Notes under the pieces: model-generated
What the model was told of the DNA's origin: nothing
The model's input: the letters and a program-made list of their open reading frames with translations, nothing else
Databases searched by the model: none
Program-made: the position numbers and the translations under genes
Shown: positions 446 through 55,500 of the stretch, piece after piece
How the letters are laid out: each line of letters begins with the position of its first letter
Position numbering within the stretch: position 1 is the first letter of the stretch
NCBI RefSeq assembly: GCF_032854445.1
Contig: NC_088295.1
Span: forward strand, 2,792,501-2,856,500
Direction of reading: 5' to 3'
Length of the DNA: 64,000 nt
Source: Liolophura sinensis
Taxonomy: Eukaryota; Mollusca; Polyplacophora; Chitonida; Chitonidae

Positions 446-3400
446 AACTGCAGTTTGATAAACAAGCTAACAACGTTCAGGTGACCGCTGCACCAGTCAA
501 CTGCAACAAGAGAAAGCAACAACCATGCATGCTTAGATTTCTACCTATGTATCTACTAAAGTTTATACCTGCCAAAAATACGCACTGTAAATCACCAATA
601 ATTTTCATAGAACTTTTTTAATAACTAATTGTTGTGCACTATAAACTGTAGTTCAGACACTTGATTAGATAGTAAAAATCATGTGAAATTTTACGTCATT
701 ACTGTTTCATTTTTTTCTTTCTTTTTTTGTGATTAGATGGTGAATGCCATGAAGTTATAGCCGGTTTTATATTGTATTTGCATTCTGCGCTGAGTTCATG
801 TATGAGCACTGTGTCCACTCACTTTTCCTTTCTTCCCCCACTTGAGGCAGTAGCCATACATATCATCAAGTACATCTCCGGACACCACCTTACCCTGGAA
901 GAACAGAACAACACAATTATCATCCAGCACATCTCCGAACACCACCTTACTCTGGTAGAACAGAACAACACAATTATCATCCAGCACATCTCCGGACACC
1001 GCCTTACTCTGGTAGAACAGAACAATACAATTGTCATCCAGCACATCTCCGGACACCATCTTATGCTGGTAGTACAGAACAACACAATTATCATCCAGCA
1101 CATTTTCGGACACCACCTTAGTCTGGTAGAACAGAACAACACAATTACACTTCATCCAAACAGTACCACAATAAAAATAGCTACCACCTTACCCTGAGCA
1201 GAAGAACATCATAACTATATATGAGACACCTAAGGCTTTATTGATCTTGTAGAGGTGATCTGAGTAAAAGATAAGATGATATCGAGGTGGCAAAATGTGA
1301 GCTTCAGCACTTACAAGTCATATTTTATGACCTTTATTTACATCTACAACTGTACTTCTTCAGGCAATTTTTCACGGCAAATACAGTATACATGATCAAA
1401 AAATTTGTCAGTGACACATACGTGTGAGGACAAGGATCAAGAGTGATGTGTGACAATGTGTACAGACAAGACAAAGGGTCGTAGTCACTGGTATACTGGA
1501 GCTACATGTGAGGACAAGGATCAAGAGTGATTTGTGACAGTGTGTACAGACAAGACAAAGGGTCGCAGTCGCTGGTACACTGTAGGAACAGGTGAGGACA
1601 AGGATCAAGAGTGATTTGTGACAGTGTGTACAGACAAGACAAAGGGTCATAGTCACTGGTATGCTGGAGCTACATGTGAGGACATGGATCAAGAGTGATT
1701 TGTGACAGTGTGTACAGACAAGACAAAGGGTCATAGTCACTGGTACACTGTAGCTACATGTGAGGACAAGGATCAAGAGTGATGTGTGACAATGTGTACA
1801 GACAAGACAAAGGGTCATAGTCACTGGTACACTGTAGCTACATGTGAGGACATGGATCAAGAGTGATTTGTGACAGTGTGTACAGACAAGACAAAGGGTC
1901 GCAGTCGCTGGTACACTGTAGGTACAGGTGAGGACAAGGATCAAGAGTGATGTGTGACAGTGTGTACAGACAAGACAAAGGGTCATAGTCACTGGTACAC
2001 TGTAGCTACATGTGAGGACATGGATCAAGAGTGATTTGTGACAGTGTGTACAGACAAGACAAAGGGTCGCAGTCGCTGGTACACTGTAGGTACAGGTGAG
2101 GACAAGGATCAAGAGTGATGTGTGACAGTGTGTACAGACAAGACAAAGGGTCGCAGTCGCTGGTACACTGTAGGTACAGGTGAGGACAAGGATCAAGAGT
2201 GATGTGTGACAATGTGTACAGACAAGACAAAGGGTCATAGTCACTGGTACACTGTAGCTACATGTGAGGACAAGGATCAAGAGTGATGTGTGACAGTGTG
2301 TACAGACAAGACAAAGGGTAATAGTCACTGGTATACTGTAGCTACATGTGAGGACAAGGATCAAGAGTGATTTGTGACAGTGTGTACAGACAAGACAAAG
2401 GGTCATAGTCACTGGTACACTGTAGCTACATGAGGACATGGATCAAGAGTGATGTGTGACAATGTGTACAGACAAGACAAAGGGTCATAGTCACTGGTAC
2501 ACTGTAGCTACATGTGAGGACAAGGATCAAGAGTGATGTGTGACAATGTGTACAGACAAGACAAAGGGTCATAGTCACTGGTATGCTGGAGCTACATGTG
2601 AGGACAAGGATCAAGAGTGATTGGTGACAGTGTGTACAGACAAGACAAAGGGTAATAGTCACTGGTACACTGTAGCTACATGTGAGGACAAGGATCAAGA
2701 GTGATTTGTGACAGTGTGTACAGACAAGACAAAGGGTCATAGTCACTGGTATACTGTAGCTACATGTGAGGACAAGGATCAAGAGTGATTTGTGACAGTG
2801 TGTACAGACAAGACAAAGGGTCGTAGTCACTGGTATACTGGAGCTACATGTGAGGACAAGGATCAAGAGTGATTTGTGACAGTGTGTACAAGTAAGACAA
2901 AGGGTCATAGTCACTGGTACACTGTAGCTACATGTGAGGACAAGGATCAAGAGTGATTTGTGACAGTGTGTACAGACAAGACAAAGGGTCGTAGTCGCTG
3001 GTACACTGTAGCTACATGTGAAGACAAGGATCAAGAGTGATTTGTGACAGTGTGTACAGACAAGACAAAGGGTCGTAGTCGCTGGTATACTGTAGCTACA
3101 TGTGAGGACAAGGATCAAGAGTGATTTGTGACAGTGTGTACAGACAAGACAAAGGGTCGTAGTCACTGGTATACTGGAGCTACATGTGAGGACAAGGATC
3201 AAGAGTGATTTGTGACAGTGTGTACAGACAAGACAAAGTGTCATAGTCACTGGTATACTGGAGCTACATGTGAGGACAAGGATCAAAAGTGATTTGTGAC
3301 AGTGTGTACAGACAAGACAAAGGGTAATAGCCACTGGTATACTGGAGCTACATGTGAGGACAAGGATCAAGAGTGATTTATGACAGTGTGTACAAACAAG

Positions 3401-6400
3401 ACAAAGTGTCATAGTCACTGGTATACTGGAGCTACATGTGAGGACAAGGATCAAGAGTGATTTGTGACAGTGTGTACAGACAAGACAAAGGGTAATAGCC
3501 ACTGGTATACTGGAGCTACATGTGAGGACAAGGATCAAGAGTGATTTATGACAGTGTGTACAGACAAGACAAAGGGTAATAGTCACTGGTATGCTGGAGC
3601 TACATGTGAGGACAAGGATCAAGAGTGATTTGTGACAGTGTGTACAGACAAGACAAAGGGTCGTAGTCGCTGGTATACTGTAGCTACATGTGAGGACAAG
3701 GATCAAGAGTGATTTGTGACAGTGTGTACAGACAAGACAAAGGGTCGTAGTCGCTGGTATACTGTAGCTACATGTGAGGACAAGGATCAAGAGTGATTTG
3801 TGACAGTGTGTACAGACAAGACAAAGGGTCATAGTCACTGGTATACTGGAGCTACATTTGAGGACAAGGATCAAGAGTGATTTGTGACATTGTGTACAGA
3901 CAAGACAAAGGGTCATAGTCACTGGTATGCTGGAGCTACATGTGAGGACAAGGATCAAGAGTGATTTGTGACAGTGTGTACAGACAAGACAAAGGGTCAT
4001 AGTCACTGGTATGCTGGAGCTACATGTGAGGACATGGATCAAGAGTGATTTGTGACAGTGTGTACAGACAAGACAAAGGGTCATAGTCACTGGTATACTG
4101 GAGCTACATGTGAGGACAAGGATCAAGAGTGGTGTGACAGTGTGTACAGACAAGACAAAGGGTCGTAGTCACTGATACACTGGAGCTGCATAGGAGAGCA
4201 AGGATCAAGAGTGATGTGTGACAGTGTGTACAGACAAGACAAAGGGTCATAGTCACTGGTATACTGTAGGTACAGGTGAGGACAAGGATCAAGAGTGATT
4301 TGTGACAATGTGTACAGACAAGACAAAGGGTCATAGTCACTGGTACACTGTAGCTCCATGTGAGGACAAGGATCAAGAGTGATGTGTGACAATGTGTATA
4401 GACAAGACAAAGGGTCGTAGTCACTGGTATACTGTAGCTACATATAAGGACAAGGATCAAGAGTGATTTGTGACAGTGTGTACAGACAAGACAATGGGTC
4501 GCAGTCGCTGGTATACTGGAGCTACATGTGAGGACAAGGATCAAGAGTGATGTGTGACAGTGTGCACAGACAAGACAAAGGGTCATAGTCACTGGTATGC
4601 TGGAGCTACATGGGAGTACATGGATCAAGAGTGATTTGTGACAGTGTGTACAGACAAGACAAAGGGTCATAGTCACTGGTACACTGTAGCTCCATGTGAG
4701 GACAAGGATCAAGAGTGATGTGTGACAATGTGTATAGACAAGACAAAGGGTCGTAGTCACTGGTATACTGTAGCTACATATAAGGACAAGGATCAAGAGT
4801 GATTTGTGACAGTGTGTACAGACAAGACAATGGGTCGCAGTCGCTGGTATACTGGAGCTACATGTGAGGACAAGGATCATGAGTGATGTGTGACAGTGTG
4901 CACAGACAAGACAAAGGGTCATAGTCACTGGTATGCTGGAGCTACATGGGAGTACATGGATCAAGAGTGATTTGTGACAGTGTGTACAGACAAGACAAAG
5001 GGTCATAGTCACTGGTATACTGGAGCTACATGTGAGGACAAGGATCAAGAGTGATTGGTGACAGTGTGTACAGACAAGACAAAGGGTCATAGTCACTGGT
5101 ATACTGGAGCTACATGGGAGTACATGGATCAAGAGTGATTTGTGACAATGTGTACAGACAAGACAAAGGGTAATAGTCACTGGTATACTGTAGCTACATA
5201 TAAGGACAAGGATCAAGAGTGATTTGTGACAGTGTGTACAGACAAGACAATGGGTCGCAGTCGCTGGTATACTGGAGCTACATGTGAGGACAAGGATCAT
5301 GAGTGATGTGTGACAGTGTGCACAGACAAGACAAAGGGTCATAGTCACTGGTATGCTGGAGCTACATGGGAGTACATGGATCAAGAGTGATTTGTGACAG
5401 TGTGTACAGACAAGACAAAGGGTCATAGTCACTGGTATACTGGAGCTACATGTGAGGACAAGGATCAAGAGTGATTGGTGACAGTGTGTACAGACAAGAC
5501 AAAGGGTCATAGTCACTGGTATACTGGAGCTACATGGGAGTACATGGATCAAGAGTGATTTGTGACAATGTGTACAGACAAGACAAAGGGTAATAGTCAC
5601 TGGAATACTGCAGGTACATGGGAGGACATGGATCAAGAGTGATGTGTGACAGTGTGTACAGACAAGACAAAGGGTCGCAGTCGCTGGTATACTGTAGGTA
5701 CAGGTGAGGACAAGGATCAAGAGTGATGTGTGACAGTGTGTACAGACAAGATAAAGGGTCACAGTCGCTGGTACACTGTAGCTACATGTGAGGACAAGGA
5801 TCAAGAGTGATGTGTGAAAGTGTGTACAGACAAGACAAAGGGTCACAGTCACTGGTATACTGGAGCTACATGTGAGGACAAGGATCAAAAGTGATGTGTG
5901 ACAGTGTGTACAGACAAGACAAAGGGTAATAGTCACTGGTACACTCACTGTAGCTACATGTGAGGACATGGATCAAGAGTGATTTGTGACAGTGTGTACA
6001 GACAAGACAAAGGGTCACAGTCACTGGTATACTGGAGCTACATGTGAGGACAAGGATCAAAAGTGATGTGTGACAGTGTGTACAGACAAGACAAAGGGTA
6101 ATAGTCACTGGTATACTGCAGGTACATGGGAGGACATGGATCAAGAGTGATGTGTGACAGTGTGTACAGACAAGACAAAGGGTAATAGTCACTGGTACAC
6201 TCACTGTAGCTACATGTGAGGACAAGGATCAAGAGTGATGTGTGACAGTGTGTACAGACAAGACAAAGGGTAATAGTCACTGGTATACTGTAGCTACATG
6301 TGAGGACATGGATCAAGAGTGATGTGTGACAGTGTGTACAGACAAGACAAAGGGTAATAGTCACTGGTACACTCACTGTAGCTACATGTGAGGACAAGGA

Positions 6401-9400
6401 TCAAGAGTGATGTGTGACAGTGTGTACAGACAAGACAAAGGGTAATAGTCATTGGTATACTGTAGCTACATGTGAGGACAAGGATCAAAAGTGATGTGTG
6501 ACGATGTGTACAGACAAGACAAAGGGTCGTAGTCACTGGTATACTGTAGGTACATGTGAGGACATGGATCAAGAGTGATGTGTGACAGTGTGTACAGACA
6601 AGACAAAGGGTAATAGTCACTGGTACACTCACTGTAGCTACATGTGAGGACAAGGATCAAGAGTGATGTGTGACAGTGTGTACAGAAAAGAGAAAGGGTA
6701 ATAGTCACTGGTATACTGTAGCTACATGTGAGGACAAGGATCAAAAGTGATGTGTGACGATGTGTACAGACAAGACAAAGGGTCATAGTCATTGGTATAC
6801 AGGAGCTACATGTGAGGACATGGATCAAGAGTGATGTGTGACAGTGTGTACAGACAAGACAAAGGGTAATAGTCACTGGTATACTGTAGGTACATGTGAG
6901 GACAAGGATCAAGAGTGATTTGTGACAGTGTGTACAGACAAGACAAAGGGTCACAGTCACTGGTATACTGGAGCTACATGTGAGGACAAGGATCAAGAGT
7001 GATTTGTGACAGTGTGTACAGACAAAACAAAGGGTAATAGTCACTGGTATACTGGAGCTACATGGGAGGACATGGATCAAGAGTGATTTGTGACAGTGTG
7101 TACAGACAAAACAAAGGGTAATAGTCACTGGTATACTGTAGCTACATGTGAGGACAAGGATCAAGAGTGATTTGTGACAGTGTGTACAGACAAAACAAAG
7201 GGTAATAGTCACTGGTATACTGGAGCTACATGGGAGGACATGGATCAAGAGTGATTTGTGACAGTGTATACAGACAAAACAAAGGGTAATAGTCACTGGT
7301 ATACTGTAGCTACATGTGAGGACATGGATCAAGAGTAATGTGTGACAGTGTGTACAGACAAGACAAAGGGTAATAGTCACTGGTACACTCACTGTAGCTA
7401 CATGTGAGGACAAGGATCAAAAGTGATGTGTGACGATGTGTACAGACAAGACAAAGGGTAACAGTCACTGGTACACTGTAGCTCCATGTGAGGACAAGGA
7501 TGGAGAGTGATGTACAGATACATGTAACACATGTACAATGTGAGGACAAGGACGGAGAGTGATGTGCACATACATGTAACACATGTGCAATGTGAGGACA
7601 AGGACGGAGAGTGATGTACAGATACATGTAACACATGTGCAATGTGAGGACAAGGACGGAGAGTGATGTACAGATACATGTAACACATGTGCAATGTGAG
7701 GACAAGGACGGAGAGTGATGTACAGATACATGTTACACATGTACAATGTGAGGAGAAAGCACATCTTACATCCTCTTCTGCCACACTGCCCTCCTCCACG
7801 GCCAGGACCACAGCCCGACCCTTCACGTACCTGCAACAGGCAAAAACACTGTACAAGTACCAACTAGCAGAGGTGGGGAACGGAGGTTGGAGGGGTGAGG
7901 GGCGTGGGTTACAGTGTGGTACAAGAACAACACAGTAGAGACAAGGAGTAAACCTGTCCAACACCCTTTTCCCCATACATCACTGTAACCAAAGCTCCCC
8001 AAACAACACTGTAACCAAAGCTGACCTTCCCTCAACAAAAACGATTACACTATGTACATGTAGGAGAGAACAGAGCACACTGATTGTTGTGAGCACACTG
8101 ATTGTTGTGAGCACACTGATTGTTGTGAGCACACTGACTGTTGCCAGCACACTTCACACTGCCATCTGTATATGTCATACTATTATAAAATTGTGCAGTA
8201 GATGACTGAAATATAAGACATTGACGACAGAGCAGAGTAATGTACAATCCCTGTGTGAGTCACACATTTCACAGTGTGTTACAATAATCCAGTTACAGGT
8301 ACAGTATACATACACAGATCACACTTAAATACCTTATACATTTAGTATCCTATAGACAAAGAAAGACAAAGAAAGCCAGTTAAAATAAAATTATGTTATA
8401 AAGAATTTATTTCATTTTACTTGAAATGAAATACACCAGTTTGAAGGTCAAAACATCAGGCAGAATGGCAGACACAATGGAAATGAATAATAATTTTATG
8501 ATCACATGAGGCCTACGTAGAAAACTCACTGAAAATGAATTCCTAGATCCTTTGTTGGAACAAACTCATATTGCCTGTACCTCTGAAAGCAAAGAAGTAA
8601 AAAATAAAACAAATAGAAAAAAACTAGACATTTCACAAGAACCTTGCTATGCTAGAGTACATTGCTCGCATACATGTATGTCAGTCATGAGAGGAAAACT
8701 AAAAGCCAGAGTTCTTTCATGCAAGTTTGAGACATTACATGGTCTGTTTAAAAACAAACATATACAGGGTATTAAATAAGATAATTTCATCATTAACATA
8801 GAAAAATAGCACATATAATCCTTCAACCTTTTCCTATATGAAAGATAAACTTTCAGCACAATTAATACAGATTTTTAATTTGATTTTGGAGGCAAAAAAA
8901 CTACACTGGTTGGATTGGATTATTTCCGGACTGCGTTAAGGAAACCTGTGCACACCAAAACATACAACAAAATCGGCCCTGACCAGAAATGGACGAAACT
9001 GTCTGATAGGTGTACTTTATTATCTATAGACTGTGAAACAGACTGTCCAATAGAAGCCATGTACCATGTTTCAATTTAATACGATGAGCTGGTAGGGAGC
9101 TGACATGATCTAAAGTCAACGATTACTTACAGGGATTTTCCAGGTTTCATCCAGGAAACTGGCATTCTGGTAAATAAACAATTATACAAATAAGTAAATA
9201 AAATCAGTTTGAAAAGTTTGTTTTAAATTTTTATCACTAAAATTTATTCTATACCCATACAATATACATGTAGACTATGTAACTCTGTCAGATCACAACA
9301 CATAAGACAGATGAAAGAGCATTATACTGGACACAATGAATTGACATACCTTTAAATTAAGTAAAAAGTTGACCTCTGTGACTTCAAATAGTAATGACAT

Positions 9401-12400
9401 CAAAATTTCTGAAAAAAAAAAGACACCAATGAAAATTACAACTTTTTAATTCAGTTAAGAAACAGGGCAAAGGAACCAGCATGAAGGGCTATGAACTGAC
9501 ACAAATAAAGGAATGCATGTAGAATTTTACAGCAATCAGCAAAACAAATGGTGCACATCTAGTAATACATATGGCAAATGACCTAACATTTCTCCCATGG
9601 CCAAGCTGTAAACTTTGCCTGATTCTGACAGCTGATTTTATTTGGATGGTAGGATGATTTCCTACTGGAAAAAAATTAAAGCTCCAAAAGTAATATTTAA
9701 GGGCATTTATTTGCCTCAAATCTTAAGTCATTAACCATAGTATGACAATATGAAACATTATCTTCAATGACTTCATCATGCAACTTACTATAATGTACGG
9801 CAGCAGTGCACATATAATGTGTGGCAGCAGTGCACATATAATGTGTGGCAGCAGTGCACATATAATGTGTGGCAGCAGTGCACATATAATGTACGGCAGC
9901 AGTGCACATATAATGTACGGCAGCAGTGCACATATAATGTGTGGCAGCAGTGCACATATAATGTACGGCAGCAGTGCACATATAATGTGTGGCAGCAGTG
10001 CACATATAATGTGTGGCAGCAGTGCACATATAATGTGTGGCAGCAGTGCACATATAATGTACGGCAGCAGTGCACATATAATGTGTGGCAGCAGTGCACA
10101 TATAATGTACGGCAGCAGTGCACATATAATGTGTGGCAGCAGTGCACATATAATGTACGGCAGCAGTGCACATATAATGTGTGGCAGCAGTGCACATATA
10201 ATGTACGGCAGCAGTGCACATATAATGTGTGGCAGCAGTGCACATATAATGTGTGGCAGCAGTGCACATATAATGTACGGCAGCAGTGCACATATAATGT
10301 GTGGCAGCAGTGCACATATAATGTACGGCAGCAGTGCACATATAATGTGTGGCAGCAGTGCACATATAATGTACGGCAGCAGTGCACATATAATGTACGG
10401 CAGCAGTGCACATATAATGTGTGGCAGCAGTGCACATATAATGTACGGCAGCAGTGCACATATAATGTACGGCAGCAGTGCACATATAATGTACGGCAGC
10501 AGTGCACATATAATGTACGGCAGCAGTGCACATATAATGTAAGGCAGCAGTGCACATATAATGTGTGGCAGCAGTGCACATATAATGTGTGGCAGCAGTG
10601 CACATATAATGTGTGGCAGCAGTGCACATATAATGTGTGGCAGCAGTGCACATATAATGTGTGGCAGCAGTGCACATATAATGTGTGGCAGCAGTGCACA
10701 TATAATGTGTGGCAGCAGTGCACATATAATGTGTGGCAGCAGTGCACATATAATGTAATTCATGTGAATGAATACAGAACATGCCTTACCAACTACACAT
10801 ACAATGTACACCAAATGAATGCTAGACATACCTCTGAGAATTTCATCTCCGATAATAGAATTGCCAGGCTCATACCAGGACTACAACACACAGATGTACA
10901 TGTAAAGTTAGAAACACACACACACACAACTTGTAGTACATGTATGTCTGGCTGCAGACAACGACAGAGGGACAGTTCTGCTGGAGACAAATCTATTTAC
11001 AGAATGTGTGTACATGCAACAACAAACAAGGCTGGGGAAATACATTATCCGTGACAAATACTTTGACTCACAATGGCTGGTTTTATGGAAACACTAGGAC
11101 GAATCCGTCTTCAATGTGATCGCACACACATGCACTGGTTCTCTTCATACGACAGACCTTATTCAGTCCACCGCCATAGTCAGACATTGTAAACAAGACA
11201 AGTATTACAGTCAATTATTGACCTGCTGTGATATGATGTTAAGATGGGCAGAGGTCCTTTACTCTTCTGCTGTTTGCACTGTCCAAAAATGCAGCATATA
11301 TCCTTTTGGACACCAAGTCTCGGTTGGAATCTAGTCATGGCTAAGGTCTATAACACACACAGTCTGTAAGATGTTCATGTACTATGAAAACATCATCACC
11401 CATGCAATCTTACACATGTCATGTAACCACCAGAGTTGTTTTACCTCAGCCAGGTCTCCAGACTTCAGCAGGATATCTATGGGGACACTCAGCACTTTCT
11501 TCACCAGAGCCCCACGTAGGAAGAGTCGACCTTGTCCCTGTAAGGTCATAGTCTGTTGACAAAAACATACCAGATACAAGCTAAATGAGGGTACACAAAA
11601 GACAACACGTCTGTCCACGTATGAGGGTTCACAATACACAACAAATCACAGCACTGTCTGGTCTGTTTACATACCAGACACAGGCTACATGAGGATTCAC
11701 AGCAGACAACACATCACACAAAATGTCTGTCCACATACCAAAAACAGGCTACACGAGGCTCACAACAGACAACACATTACGCAAAATGTCTGTTCACATG
11801 CCTGACACAGGTCAGATAAGGATCACAACAGACAGCACATTACAGCACTGGTCTGTCTAGATATCAACAGTACGAACACAAAATACTTTTACAAATATAA
11901 ATGTACAGTACTTTACATACCCTGTATATACATGTGTTTACATATATTCATGTACAGTACAGCCAGATCCTAACCATCAATCCTACGCCCACTGTGGTTG
12001 GGTGGCCCATGTATCTTATGCCCACTATACGCAGACCCTGGTTGGACCCTGATCAAATACTGGTGTCACCCTCCACTTACCATCTGCGTAGAGCCGCCAC
12101 AGGGTCTGCTCACTGTTCGCCAACAGTCCGTGCATGGTGGCGCTATGGTCAGCTTATCATTTTACGACATTCATTCACTAGATGGAGTTTGATGTCATGA
12201 CACTGGACATACACTGTAGGCCTTGTATTATTTGCAAGAATTTCTCTGCACATTTTAAAGATTTATTACTGATTCTGAACATGACACATGCACAGAAAAG
12301 GATGATATATTCTGGTGTTTTGCCATAATTTATACATGGATAGGTAGAGGAATATTCTGGCTTGATTTTATAAAGGTTCAGGATTTAGAAAAGATTTAGG

Positions 12401-34500: not shown

Positions 34501-37500
34501 GTTACCGTATACCGCCTTCTGTATATCATGGTATTAAACTTATAATGTGTTACACACAAACAAGGAGCAAAAAAATTATTTATTATCAAACACTTAGCTG
34601 GAACACGTGACTAACTACTGTAGCCAGGCAAACAGCACAGAATCAATGCTATGAACTGGCAGTGGTAACTACGTCATACGTGGGCAGGTGATTGCTGACT
34701 ACATGTATTTGACGACCAGCTGTACGCTATAGCAGAACAATACAACACACAAGTGGTCTCTAATAACAACAAGCAAACTCTGTTTTCTGATGATTGTAAA
34801 CAGATGAGAGCGAAATAAGCCAAAAGTAGGGCCAGAGTTTATCAAAGAGCAGGCTAGGTTATAGACAAAGCAATAAATCAGGAAGGCATTATAACAAATT
34901 ATGGGGAGACCAAAGCAAATAAAAACAACAGGAAAACCAACCCTGAAAATAAGACAGACAGAGGAAAAGGCAGGAAGATTGCAGTGGCCTCCTCCCAAGA
35001 GAAATTTTGACTGGTACATTTAGCGAAGACACACGGACGATTTACTGGTCAGAAGCTCGCTGGCATTGTCTAATTAGACAAACACTTACAAAATTTTACG
35101 CAGTGTTTTACCGAAAGAGCAGCGGCGATTATGTTGCACAAGAATAATTAGCAGCAACATAAAGTTAGAAATAATAAATATCCGAAAAAGAAAGTGGAAA
35201 ATAGGTTGAAATCGTCAACCCACGTGAATCTGTATCTGCCTCAGATTTGTCTGTGTCTGTCATCCATTGTAAGACACGAAACGACATAGATTGTTTGTTT
35301 GCTGCAGAACCTCCTCGAAACTCGCCCTCCTCCGATCCCGATTGGCCAGGCTTCCCGCCAGACTCGGTCTCACGGATGAACTTGGCAACTTCAGATTCAT
35401 CTTTCTTTGGCCGTTCTTGCATTCTGTAAGAATAGACGCCAAAATTGCACAAAATGGTATCAGTGGAGGCCATTTAATTACCCCTATATGCAATGGAAGC
35501 TTAAGCGGCACAGCACAGACAACTACATCACTACCATGCGATATGCCATTTTCAAGGCTTTCTCCTCAGGGATTGGATTTTTTTATCACTTTTCTACATA
35601 TATAAGCTCTTTGGCAAACAGCATGTGTTTGTACTCAAGCTGGTGAAGCAAATGCTAAATTATGTTAACATGCAATGCCGTGGCTCTATTTGCTATTACT
35701 AACGGTACACACGGAAGAACTGTATACCAGGATTTTCATTTCTAACTTATAAGTTCAACTGGAATTTGGCAACTGCTGTCGACTATAGTTTGTCCGCATG
35801 TTGTCGACGGTCATTGCGTCGGGAGTTGTCTCCACTTACCCCTGAGCAGCGCCACCTGCTTGAGCAATGAAAGCCTCGTTGATATTGTCATTGGAGTAAA
35901 CTGGGATTGGTGAATTGTATTGTGCATGAACTTGACCCACTGCTCCTGACGGCAAGGGGGGAGACATGGTGTTCTTGGACGGGATAATCGTGGCGGGAGC
36001 CGGCCTGGCCGATATGGGAGCATGCAGTTCGGGGTCTTTGGCGGCCTTGGCCTTAGCCGATGCTTGCATGGCTTGTCTGAGAACGGAAGGAATGAAGAAC
36101 ACATCACATCAGCATGCACTGCATATAATCACTCTAACATGCTCCATTCACTAAATACTACACTGGTCTGAAAACGGAACGAGGACAAGGGTGCCGTGTT
36201 CGAACAAACGAATCTGAAATTTTATTTGATGCTAGGGCAGTTAGACACATGACCAAGACACACGATATATGCCTACAGCCGGAATCAACCAGTGATGCCT
36301 CAAATACCTGATCGCACAAAACTAGGCAATGTGCGAGACAGGGAATAATAGGTATAAGGCCAGATGCCACCACTTTAATACCTCACTACTACCAAGAGAC
36401 GCAACAAGGCCCGCTCCCGTAATTTGGGTACAAATGTTAGCAATCACTCATGCAGCAAGATACCTCACGAAAACAATGCTACAGGCTACCTCTTTGACAT
36501 GCACACATATACCTCAACATTTTGACATGCACACATATAGAACAAAATTTTGACATGTACACATATACCTGGACATTTTGACAGGTACACATATACCTGG
36601 ACATTTTGACAGGTACAGATATACCTGAACACTTTGACAGGTACAGATAGGCCCTATACCTGAACACTTTGACAGGTACAGATATACCTGAACACTTTGA
36701 CATGTACACATATACCTGAACACTTTGACATGTACACATATACCTGGACATTTTGACAGGTACACATATACCTGGACATTATGACAGGTACAGATATACC
36801 TGAACACTTTGACAGGTACAGATATACCTGAACACTTTGACAGGTACAGATATACCTGAACACTTTGACATGTACACATATACCTGAACACTTTGACATG
36901 TACACATATACCTGAGTATTTTGACATGTACACATATACCTTAACACTTTGACATGTACACATATACCTGAACATTTTGGCATGTACACATATACCTGGA
37001 CACTTTGACATGTACAGATATACGTGGACACTTTGACACGTGCACATATACCTGGACACTTTGACATGTACACCTATACCTAAATACTCTGACGTACACA
37101 TATACCTGAGTATTTTGACATGTACACATATACCTGAACATTTTGGCATGTACACATTTACCTGGACACTTTGACATGTACAAATATACGTGGACACTTT
37201 GACACGTGCACATATACCTGGGCACTTTGACATGTACATATATACGTCGACCCTTTGACACGTACACATATACCTGAATACTCTGACATGTACACATATG
37301 CCTGGACACTTTGACATGTACACATATACCTGGACACTTTGACATGTACATATATACGTCGACACTTTGACATGTACACATATACGTCGACACTTCGACA
37401 TCTACACATATATCTGGACATTTTGACATGTACACATTTACCTGGACACTTTGACATGTACACATTTACCTGGACACTTTGACATGTACACATTTACCTG

Positions 37501-52500: not shown

Positions 52501-55500
52501 GCCGCTGGAACCGCCTTGGATTCTGGGACAGAAGGTTCTTCTTGAGCTTCTGGTACCGGGGGTGGTTGCGGCAAAGGTTCTGCGGGTGGGGGTGGTTGAA
52601 CGGTTATTAATGGTGAGCTTTGCACTGGGTCTGGCCGGCTGGGCTGGGACTGGCTCTGACTCGGGGAGAAATGGCTGCTACCGTCGGACGTCGGCTGGAA
52701 TTTGGAAACATTGTCCTGTGAAAATGGTCTAGCTACTTGAGTTTGGTAATCGTCAGTAAATGGTCTAGATGCAGGCTGATTGCCACTGCCGAACGGCCGG
52801 TAAACTGAGTCCTCGTAATTGGGTGCAGCCACATTTGGCGTCTGCCTGAATGATGCCGAAGAGGACGGGGTGAAGGTGACAGAGGACGTGGACAGCTGAG
52901 GTGCTGGCTGAGGAGCTTGCTGGAACTCTCGCTCGTCGTAGAGGGAGCGTCCGCCGAAGTCGCTGTGAGCTGGGGGCTGACCGTACCGTCGGGGCAGGGT
53001 GTTGGAGTAGCCGCTGTAGTTAGTTTCAGTCGTGGCGTTGTAACGGCCAGGGGGACTACCAAAACTTTGCTGTCTTCCAAGGCTGTTTTGGAGGCCGTAA
53101 TTATCTGAAATACCATAATTATCTGACCTGCCAAATGAATCCTGGCGTCCGTATGCATCCTGCCTGATTTGGGGGTCCTGGTGTCCGTATGCATCCTGCC
53201 TGATTTGGGGGTCCTGGCGCCCGTACGTATCCTGTCTACCTTGTGCATCCTGGCGACCGTAGACATTCTGCCTTGAATGGGAGTCCTGGCGACCGTAGTC
53301 ATCGTAACGTCCGAACTGATCGGGAGCGCGGCGGCTGGGAGCGCCGAAGTCTGTCACCCCTGGAGCCACCTTGATGGTGGGGTCGTTATATGCCATGCTC
53401 CAAGGGTCTCTGTCATAGTAGTCATAAGAGGAGGAGGAAGGTGGGTACCCCCGAGAGGCCCCAGGGGAGAAGGTCGCCTGACTGGTGGGCTGATAGCCAC
53501 GGGACTGTGGCTGGGAATAGCTAGATGTTTGCTGCTGCACTGGTTGTGGAGCAAATCTTTGCGTTGGTGGTGAGAAAGGTGCTTGTCTTTGTTGTGGCTG
53601 TTGGTTGTATCTTTGCTGTGGGCTATCTCTGTAGACGCTGTCGTACGAGGGTGGGGCGGGGCTGTTGGAGTACGGCCCGCCGTACCGACCATAATCCTGA
53701 GACTGCGAGGCCGCAGGGGTGCGACTGGGGCCCACCTGAAACGATGGCGCCTGGTAACTCTGTTGTTGGTAGTTTGGAGAGATGTTATAGGAGAAGGGAT
53801 CGTTGGTGACGGGCGTAAAGGGTGATGAGGTCGGGATAGGAACAGCACCTCCCCTGGGGCAACAAAACAGATGTAACAATAGATTAAACAACGGACGAAT
53901 AATGTACATTTACTGACAACTTTACCTCTGTATTATAAGAGCATTTTATGTGAGAGTCTATTACTGGCAAATTCTAAACGTCATCATGTTTTTCTTTGGG
54001 AAAACCTATGACTGTTTTACATCCGAACCACCTGAAGAGAAGGGAAATAATCTGTTCCAAACCGAGCGCATATAATTTATCACAAGGATTATTCCCCCTT
54101 AAATTCGCTGCACAGATAGGGGTAGTACTTACTTTCGAATAGTTAACTGTAAAATATTGGTTGCTCTGCGAATTATCTCCTGGCCTTCCACGTGACTGAG
54201 ATTACCCGCATTCACATTTCCTATTTTGAGAATGACGTCTCCAGGAGAGAGTCCATGTGAAGCCACACTTCCCGGGGTGACCTGGGAAAAGCATATGTAT
54301 AGATTATACAAGGTCTGTACCTTTTACAAGGGGGTCTCAAGCTTTCAGTCATAAATTCTACAACTATGAAAACTAAAACATGACAACCATTTTTCTAAAT
54401 GCGGGTGTTTCAGAGCCTTAAAATTACCTACTGCTTTTCGCTATCATTTGCTGGACTATTTTGCTGGACTTCGTCTTATTTCATGCCAACAACTCAAATC
54501 ACAACTTGTGATATGTAGGCTGCGTTTATAAACACTTTGCTTTGTGGAAAGATAGATTCACACGCCAACACGTACATAGTGCACATTTTGTTACTCCAAG
54601 GAGGCAAGTAAAGGTTGTGTAAAGTTACGATTGTCAGTGCGTCAGTTTTATTCTCTACTGTCCTCTGTCTTACATTTCAAATCCTACGCCGATGTGTGTT
54701 AGATTTCATATTCATCCTCATATGTGTCAGATGTTATATCTACCCTCACACGTGTCACATTTCACACCTAACCTCACATGTGTCACATTTCACATCTACC
54801 CTCACACGTGTCACATTTCACACCTAACCTCACATGTGTCACATTTCACATCTACCCTCACACGTGTCACATTTCACATATACCCACACATTGGCCACAT
54901 TTCACACCTAACCTCACACGTGTCACATTTCACATCTACCCTCACATGTGCCACATTTCACATACACCCTCACATGTGCCACATTTCATATATACCCACA
55001 CATTTGCCACATTTCACATCTACCTTCACACGTGTCACATTTCACATCTACCCTCACATGTGTCACATTTCATATATACCCACACATTTGCCACATTTCA
55101 CATCTACCCTCACATGTGTCACATTTCATATATACCCACACATTTGCCACATTTTATATCTACCTTCACATATGTCACATATCATATATACCCTCACGTG
55201 TCACATTTCATAATCATCCTCATATGCGTTACATTCACATCTGCCCTCACGTGTCTCACATCGAACCTCACATGTGTCACCTTTAACATCTACCCTCACA
55301 TGTGTCACATTTCACACCTTTCCTCATGTGTCTCACATTTCACATCTGCGTCGTATCTGTCACATTTCATATCTACCCTGACGTGTCACATTTCATATCT
55401 TCAACCATAACATTGAAAAGACACAAACCATAATGTCGAAGGAGATACAACAATAATATCTGGGGAAACAAAATAACACAACCATAACATCAGTGAAGAG

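Follow-up and report, generated by a model that had tools for sequence, protein, structure and literature searches.

Minisatellite-like tandem duplications of an intron-exon boundary, known as mirages, occur in the amphioxus genes Adh3 and TnC and the globin genes BflGb6 and BflGb9, as described in the accessible parts of PMC3087553; to these, the accessible text of PMC3902484 adds PGBD5 and troponin C. In the same portions of both papers, mirages have units of 10-160 bp with many copies bearing AG or GT signals, and they are reported or inferred to leave splicing undisturbed. The case of BflGb6 involves the 3' end of an intron and the 5' part of exon 2 (PMC3087553, same portions). Tandem AGGT duplication, a recorded route of intron gain according to the accessible sections of PMC3443670, likewise adds new AG and GT signals. 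In human segmental duplications, tandem repeats overlap splice junctions and alter gene structure, and repeats at exon-intron boundaries are often accompanied by alternative transcripts (PMC2812944, accessible sections). In a limited literature search, mostly without subscription papers, we found no report of a mirage in molluscs or chitons.

The DNA analysed here (the window) is a stretch of 64,000 nucleotides from the chiton Liolophura sinensis, lying 2.8 Mb into C1. A gene on its minus strand, the strand on which all features of this gene are given, carries a 57-bp tandem array at 861..1147 (5.0 copies, 90% matches, 0% indels, TRF score 469), and direct repeats across 861-1147 keep a register of exactly 57 bases. 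Each repeat unit combines 33 nt of exon start (GGTAAGGTGGTGTCCGGAGATGTACTTGATGAT, as in exon 894-823) with 24 nt of intron end (AATTGTGTTGTTCTGTTCTACCAG), the latter holding TGATAAT, a pyrimidine tract and CAG. The TGATAAT motif arises where exon and intron sequence join within each unit; standing about 24 nt before each CAG, it is what we take to be a plausible branch site. Acceptors of the form CAG lie at 894, 951, 1008, 1065 and 1122, and behind each come 33 exon-start-like nucleotides. The TRF result, the register and the units confirm what the earlier note had seen, namely that the acceptor and first eleven codons of exon 823-894 occur five times at 57-base spacing, each with its own CAG. 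Chance does not explain this array.

The four full copies upstream of the exon differ in small ways. Copy 1 (895..951) spans from the 951/952 junction through the CAG at the 894 junction, and copy 2 (952..1008) starts at the 1008/1009 junction; both keep a GT at +2. This donor-like GT is absent from copy 3 (1009..1065, junction 1065/1066) and copy 4 (1066..1122, junction 1122/1123). The bases around the acceptors are TTCTTCCAG followed by G at 894, TTCTACCAG followed by A at 951, 1008 and 1122, and TACTACCAG followed by C at 1065. An exact 14-base match between 1183-1196 and 884-897 pointed to a sixth, diverged copy at 1183..1218 (direct-repeat family D3), with its CAG at 1196-1194 and its acceptor before 1193. 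Its alignment to the unit, which takes in the polypyrimidine tract, the CAG and the initial 11 bases of the exon, scores 33, a value reached by none of 2000 random window stretches outside the array (best random score 27). CAG is intact before all five in-register starts and before the sixth, and a GT stands one base after the acceptor at 894, 951, 1008 and 1193.

An open frame of 130 aa runs from 1188 to 796 across the five in-register copies, and the unit consensus translates as SKVVSGDVLDDNCVVLFYQ. The sixth copy has a spacing of 71 nt to its neighbouring acceptor and, after 13 codons (GKVVAIFIVVLFG), reads into a stop. The claim that no copy has a stop is therefore to be limited to the five in-register copies and does not extend to the whole cluster.

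The gene model around the array, with its PDZ-like exon, holds: the phases fit, and the junction at 894 gives contiguous, if weakly matching, PDZ-like sequence. The coding exon 823..894 has 72 nt and phase 0 at both ends (GKVVSGDVLDDMYGYCLKWGKKGK), with its exon-proximal acceptor at 894/895; a genome search with its 24 amino acids gave one match. It is preceded by an intron of about 6.9 kb (895..7769), which holds two further arrays besides the 57-bp one, an 84-bp unit repeated 72 times (1419-7511) and a 52-bp unit repeated five times (7486-7754). Both stop short of any exon. A dispersed element, perhaps a SINE or MITE, lies at 1244-1401 of the window and has at least 25 further matches in the genome at 71-85% identity. 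The upstream exon, 7770..7830, ends in phase 0 (YVKGRAVVLAVEEGSVAEED). Downstream, the exon after 894-823 corresponds to 9203-9001 of locus L006, entered in phase 0 and left in phase 2; this phase is taken up by a 46-nt exon that begins behind the AG before TGCTGTTTACCAGGCC, with exons of 69, 60 and 83 nt following. In this way the phases chain from exon 7830-7770 through 894-823 and the five L006 exons.

Splicing at 894 reads VLAVEEGSVAEED-GKVVSGDVL, a PDZ-like sequence without interruption, contiguous in the manner of PDZ domains. Across the spliced exons the match to PDZ_6 (E 0.018) is below the Pfam cut-off, as are the matches of PTB-like sequence in the L006 exons to IRS (E 0.004) and PID (E 0.038). 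A candidate further upstream exon (11445..11552), whose phase does not join 7830 directly, is weakly RUN-like (Pfam RUN, E 0.0053, below cut-off). It was not among the matches listed by a genome-wide RUN search, nor was the locus of the window gene among those listed by a genome-wide PID search. We dropped RUN and PTB as names for the gene, given the weakness of these matches. PDB searches returned nothing useful.

The array is thus minisatellite-like and, on the predicted gene model, its unit lies across an intron-exon boundary, as in the amphioxus mirages, with the orientation described for BflGb6 (PMC3087553, accessible parts). It differs from them in its mollusc host and its 57-bp in-frame unit; splicing and haplotype variation have been examined in amphioxus, whereas the chiton array is known from one assembly. 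The window array also departs from intron gain through tandem AGGT duplication. What has grown here is an intron of about 6.9 kb that already existed and whose acceptor lies in the unit and has been multiplied; formerly exonic sequence was not found to hold any new intron. While the alternative forms in human segmental duplications have transcript support (PMC2812944, accessible sections), the chiton array was read from the genome alone.

The window array has company elsewhere in the genome. Among 93 unique sampled exons, with the window exon outside the count, we found five clear and two borderline boundary arrays, where a clear case is one in which, judged by inspection, the junction and at least 10 nt of exon are repeated. 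Two clear cases are donor arrays directly behind myosin exons at about 0.68 Mb of C12: a 31-bp unit repeated 18 times (L063, 1180-1460; exon end CTCACACAG followed by GTCAGT) and a 66-bp unit repeated 8.1 times (L064, 330-720; GATCATCAG followed by GTATGTG). The other three lie at kinesin exons. They are a donor array on C1 (L081, 63 bp, 5.7 copies), a decayed donor array on C10 (L093, 34 bp, 9.1 copies) and an acceptor array at about 0.68 Mb of C8 (L088, 1-330, 64 bp, 5.1 copies). The borderline cases, L089 (71 bp) and L072 (32 bp), include about five and about nine exon bases, respectively. The L088 array is the closest sister of the window array but has a frame-breaking 64-bp unit, and among its approximately five copies the three upstream ones that have an exact start meet a stop after 11 codons. 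With the window included, the six clear arrays have units of 57, 31, 66, 63, 64 and 34 bp, three of them multiples of three. Given the frame-breaking units and the stops in L088, some boundary arrays cannot be coding inserts.

In the first 46 loci (30 PDZ and 16 myosin), none had an array overlapping the matched exon stretch; the array of L063, at a neighbouring exon in the flank of L050, escaped this test because only the matched stretch was examined. Later exons were chosen for lying close to a contig end (26 from the listed matches and 24 of 270 matches), and this near-end set is incomplete, as most matches with internal stops, long single-exon kinases and some others were omitted. Several candidates proved intronic on inspection and were rejected as boundary arrays, namely L049 (the same exon as L067), L065, L070, both arrays of L074, L079, the first L080 exon, L091 and L036. 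At the second L080 exon (1001-1301, C1 at about 4.563 Mb, a kinesin gene), a 44-bp array repeats an acceptor-like tract and AG, without exon sequence, just before the real acceptor.

We consider it likely, from sequence and by analogy with the amphioxus arrays, that the 57-bp array is a neutral mirage and that splicing takes place at the exon-proximal acceptor. A segment across the intron-exon boundary (24 nt of intron end and 33 nt of exon) would have been duplicated in tandem, and the resulting minisatellite would have been amplified through unequal exchange or slippage. The spliceosome would choose the acceptor at 894, the upstream copies would be intronic, competing but mostly silent acceptors, and the match of the 57-bp period to the reading frame is probably a coincidence. 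Minisatellites at an exon edge could persist in this manner while one working junction beside the exon survives. The earlier note had left three options side by side, a length-variable insert, a splicing decoy or neutral expansion. We favour the last, combined with mostly unused decoys, because 11 of the 12 changes among the copies replace amino acids, the sister arrays break the frame and the amphioxus arrays spare splicing; the insert is without positive support.

The changes were counted in the four full copies against their consensus. One of the 12 is synonymous, and two adjacent changes share one codon. Under a neutral expectation of 23-30% synonymous changes, one or fewer of 12 has P 0.09-0.20, depending on transition bias. 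This is a weak test, and we saw no sign of purifying selection on the copies at the low power that 12 changes allow. With so few changes, the absence of stops is itself probable (P 0.65-0.73), so that the open frame is no evidence of coding use. Loss of the donor-like GT, considered as a selected trait, takes up two of the 12 changes (P 0.06). Between exon 894-823 and the unit consensus there are three differing sites, two of them synonymous (read by eye).

The alternative that some transcripts use upstream acceptors, so that each unit would contribute 19 residues behind the EED of the PDZ-like domain and copy number would vary between individuals, appears rather unlikely to us. Its appeal lies in the five in-register acceptors, which retain both CAG and frame, and in the plausible lengths of the extended exons; boundary repeats in human segmental duplications are, moreover, accompanied by alternative transcripts (PMC2812944, accessible sections). 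On the other hand, nearly all changes between copies replace amino acids, the sixth acceptor is out of frame, the extra residues would fall within a compact domain, and no in-frame insert could come from sister arrays whose units measure 31, 34 and 64 bp. Slightly less probable still is the extension of this idea, in which partial use of upstream acceptors would let the copy number of a chromosome-end minisatellite set the length of a PDZ-like insert in 19-residue units, with protein length polymorphic among chitons. The array could instead be read as part of one long coding exon from about 1188 to 823, with the 57-bp units as a protein repeat. The 130-aa open frame would fit, but every unit places a pyrimidine tract and a CAG precisely where the exon begins, splicing at 894 already yields contiguous PDZ-like sequence and the amino-acid changes among the copies look unconstrained, so that we regard a long exon as very improbable.

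We give equally little credence to a chain of mini-introns, in which each GT-intact unit would provide a 56-nt GTAAGG...CAG intron and the array would be removed piecewise, an early stage in the birth of an intron through AG/GT duplication. A GT does stand one base behind the acceptors at 894, 951, 1008 and 1193, and intron gain through tandem AGGT duplication is on record (PMC3443670, accessible sections). However, there is no GT at 1065 and 1122, 56 nt may be too short an intron for this animal, and use of these sites would shift the frame and leave one-base exons; an intron is already present, and therefore no new one is needed. Least probable of all is an assembly artefact. Tandem arrays can be miscounted, but these copies differ from one another and occupy about 0.3 kb, and HiFi reads averaging 8,347 bp went into the assembly (PMC11068029, accessible parts), which makes an artefact unlikely; comparable arrays also exist at independent loci.

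Among the in-register acceptors, the exon-proximal one at 894 has the best tract, with 13 of 17 pyrimidines and G at +1; the four array copies reach 11-12 of 17 and carry A or C at +1. Against the neutral reading, the sixth acceptor also has G at +1, with a pyrimidine run of 7 versus 6 at 894. A trend towards a stronger proximal site is opposed by L088 as well, where the acceptor of the exon has 6 of 13 pyrimidines versus 7-8 of 13 in the three copies seen. Which site is chosen may therefore depend on more than strength. Donor arrays were scored against the donor consensus: in six of them (four clear, two borderline), none of 50 copies placed by period was better than the exon's own donor, 12 were equal and 38 weaker, the last count being inflated by copies that are out of register (such as L063 copy 3 and L081 copy 5) and the visual check being limited to the first six copies per array. 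Exons starting at the upstream in-register acceptors would be 129 to 300 nt long. Such lengths are compatible with exon definition, and the anatomy therefore does not forbid use of these acceptors, which speaks against the neutral reading.

We also asked where in the genome such arrays lie. The published Liolophura japonica assembly, whose species was renamed Liolophura sinensis in a correction (PMC12441733), carries telomeric repeats where scaffold 1 begins, according to the scaffold table in the accessible part of PMC11068029. Tandem arrays of period 7 or more (TRF) account for 40.7% of the sequence in the window and 38.0% in L006, compared with 3.1% of the 30 PDZ loci (95,439 bp) and 10.2% of the 16 myosin loci (52,041 bp). 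Near-end pieces showed 26.0% of 29,218 bp and 19.9% of 18,625 bp at a slightly laxer TRF threshold. In 7-kb samples of C1, coverage was 87% at 1 Mb, 17.7% at 12 Mb and 2.7% at 48 Mb, and samples from C4 at 20 Mb and C9 at 12 Mb gave 5.5% and 1.5%. On these few samples, minisatellites appear concentrated toward chromosome ends.

All seven clear or borderline boundary arrays lie within 5 Mb of scaffold ends. At a cut of 5 Mb, clear cases were found in 5 of 50 near exons versus 0 of 43 far ones (Fisher 0.059), and with the borderline cases in 7 of 50 versus 0 of 43 (0.014); at 3 Mb the clear cases were 4 of 42 versus 1 of 51 (0.17; 0.043 with borderline), and at 7 Mb 5 of 56 versus 0 of 37 (0.15; 0.039 with borderline), all in a comparison whose near set was chosen by place, whose cases were called by eye and include two that presumably belong to one gene, whose TRF threshold was 50 in the first set and 40 later, whose exon edges are approximated by HMM match edges and whose C3 and C5 lengths were assigned from the table in the accessible part of PMC11068029. 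The tendency of boundary arrays toward contig ends is suggestive only.

The window array is most likely a mirage in a mollusc, and a neutral one. Its presence beside five clear and two borderline cases among 93 sampled exons suggests that boundary-duplicating minisatellites arise in any setting that combines dense minisatellites with intron-rich genes. Such arrays form natural series of near-identical competing splice sites, regularly spaced and with small differences, which makes them useful for questions of site choice. The value of the window array lies in its being one of several in one genome and a natural test of this choice.

Some further features were seen. On C99, seven COX1 matches at a spacing of about 15.5 kb indicate a tandem chain of mitochondrial genomes, either a concatemer or an assembly artefact; ARAGORN with the bacterial code found no tRNA on this mitochondrial contig. 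The mitochondrial gene order, with ORFs named by eye apart from COX1, is of a mollusc type and speaks against amphioxus as the source, a first guess prompted by the minisatellites. Within the window, on the minus strand, the regions 35165-36108 and 54135-54287 have DUF4749 matches, one over and one below the Pfam cut-off, along with a PDZ match. The gene with these matches neighbours the array gene and is perhaps ALP/Enigma/ZASP-like. Over about 52.4-53.9 kb it has a long open frame that is rich in proline and holds a 36-bp repeat at 53140-53297.
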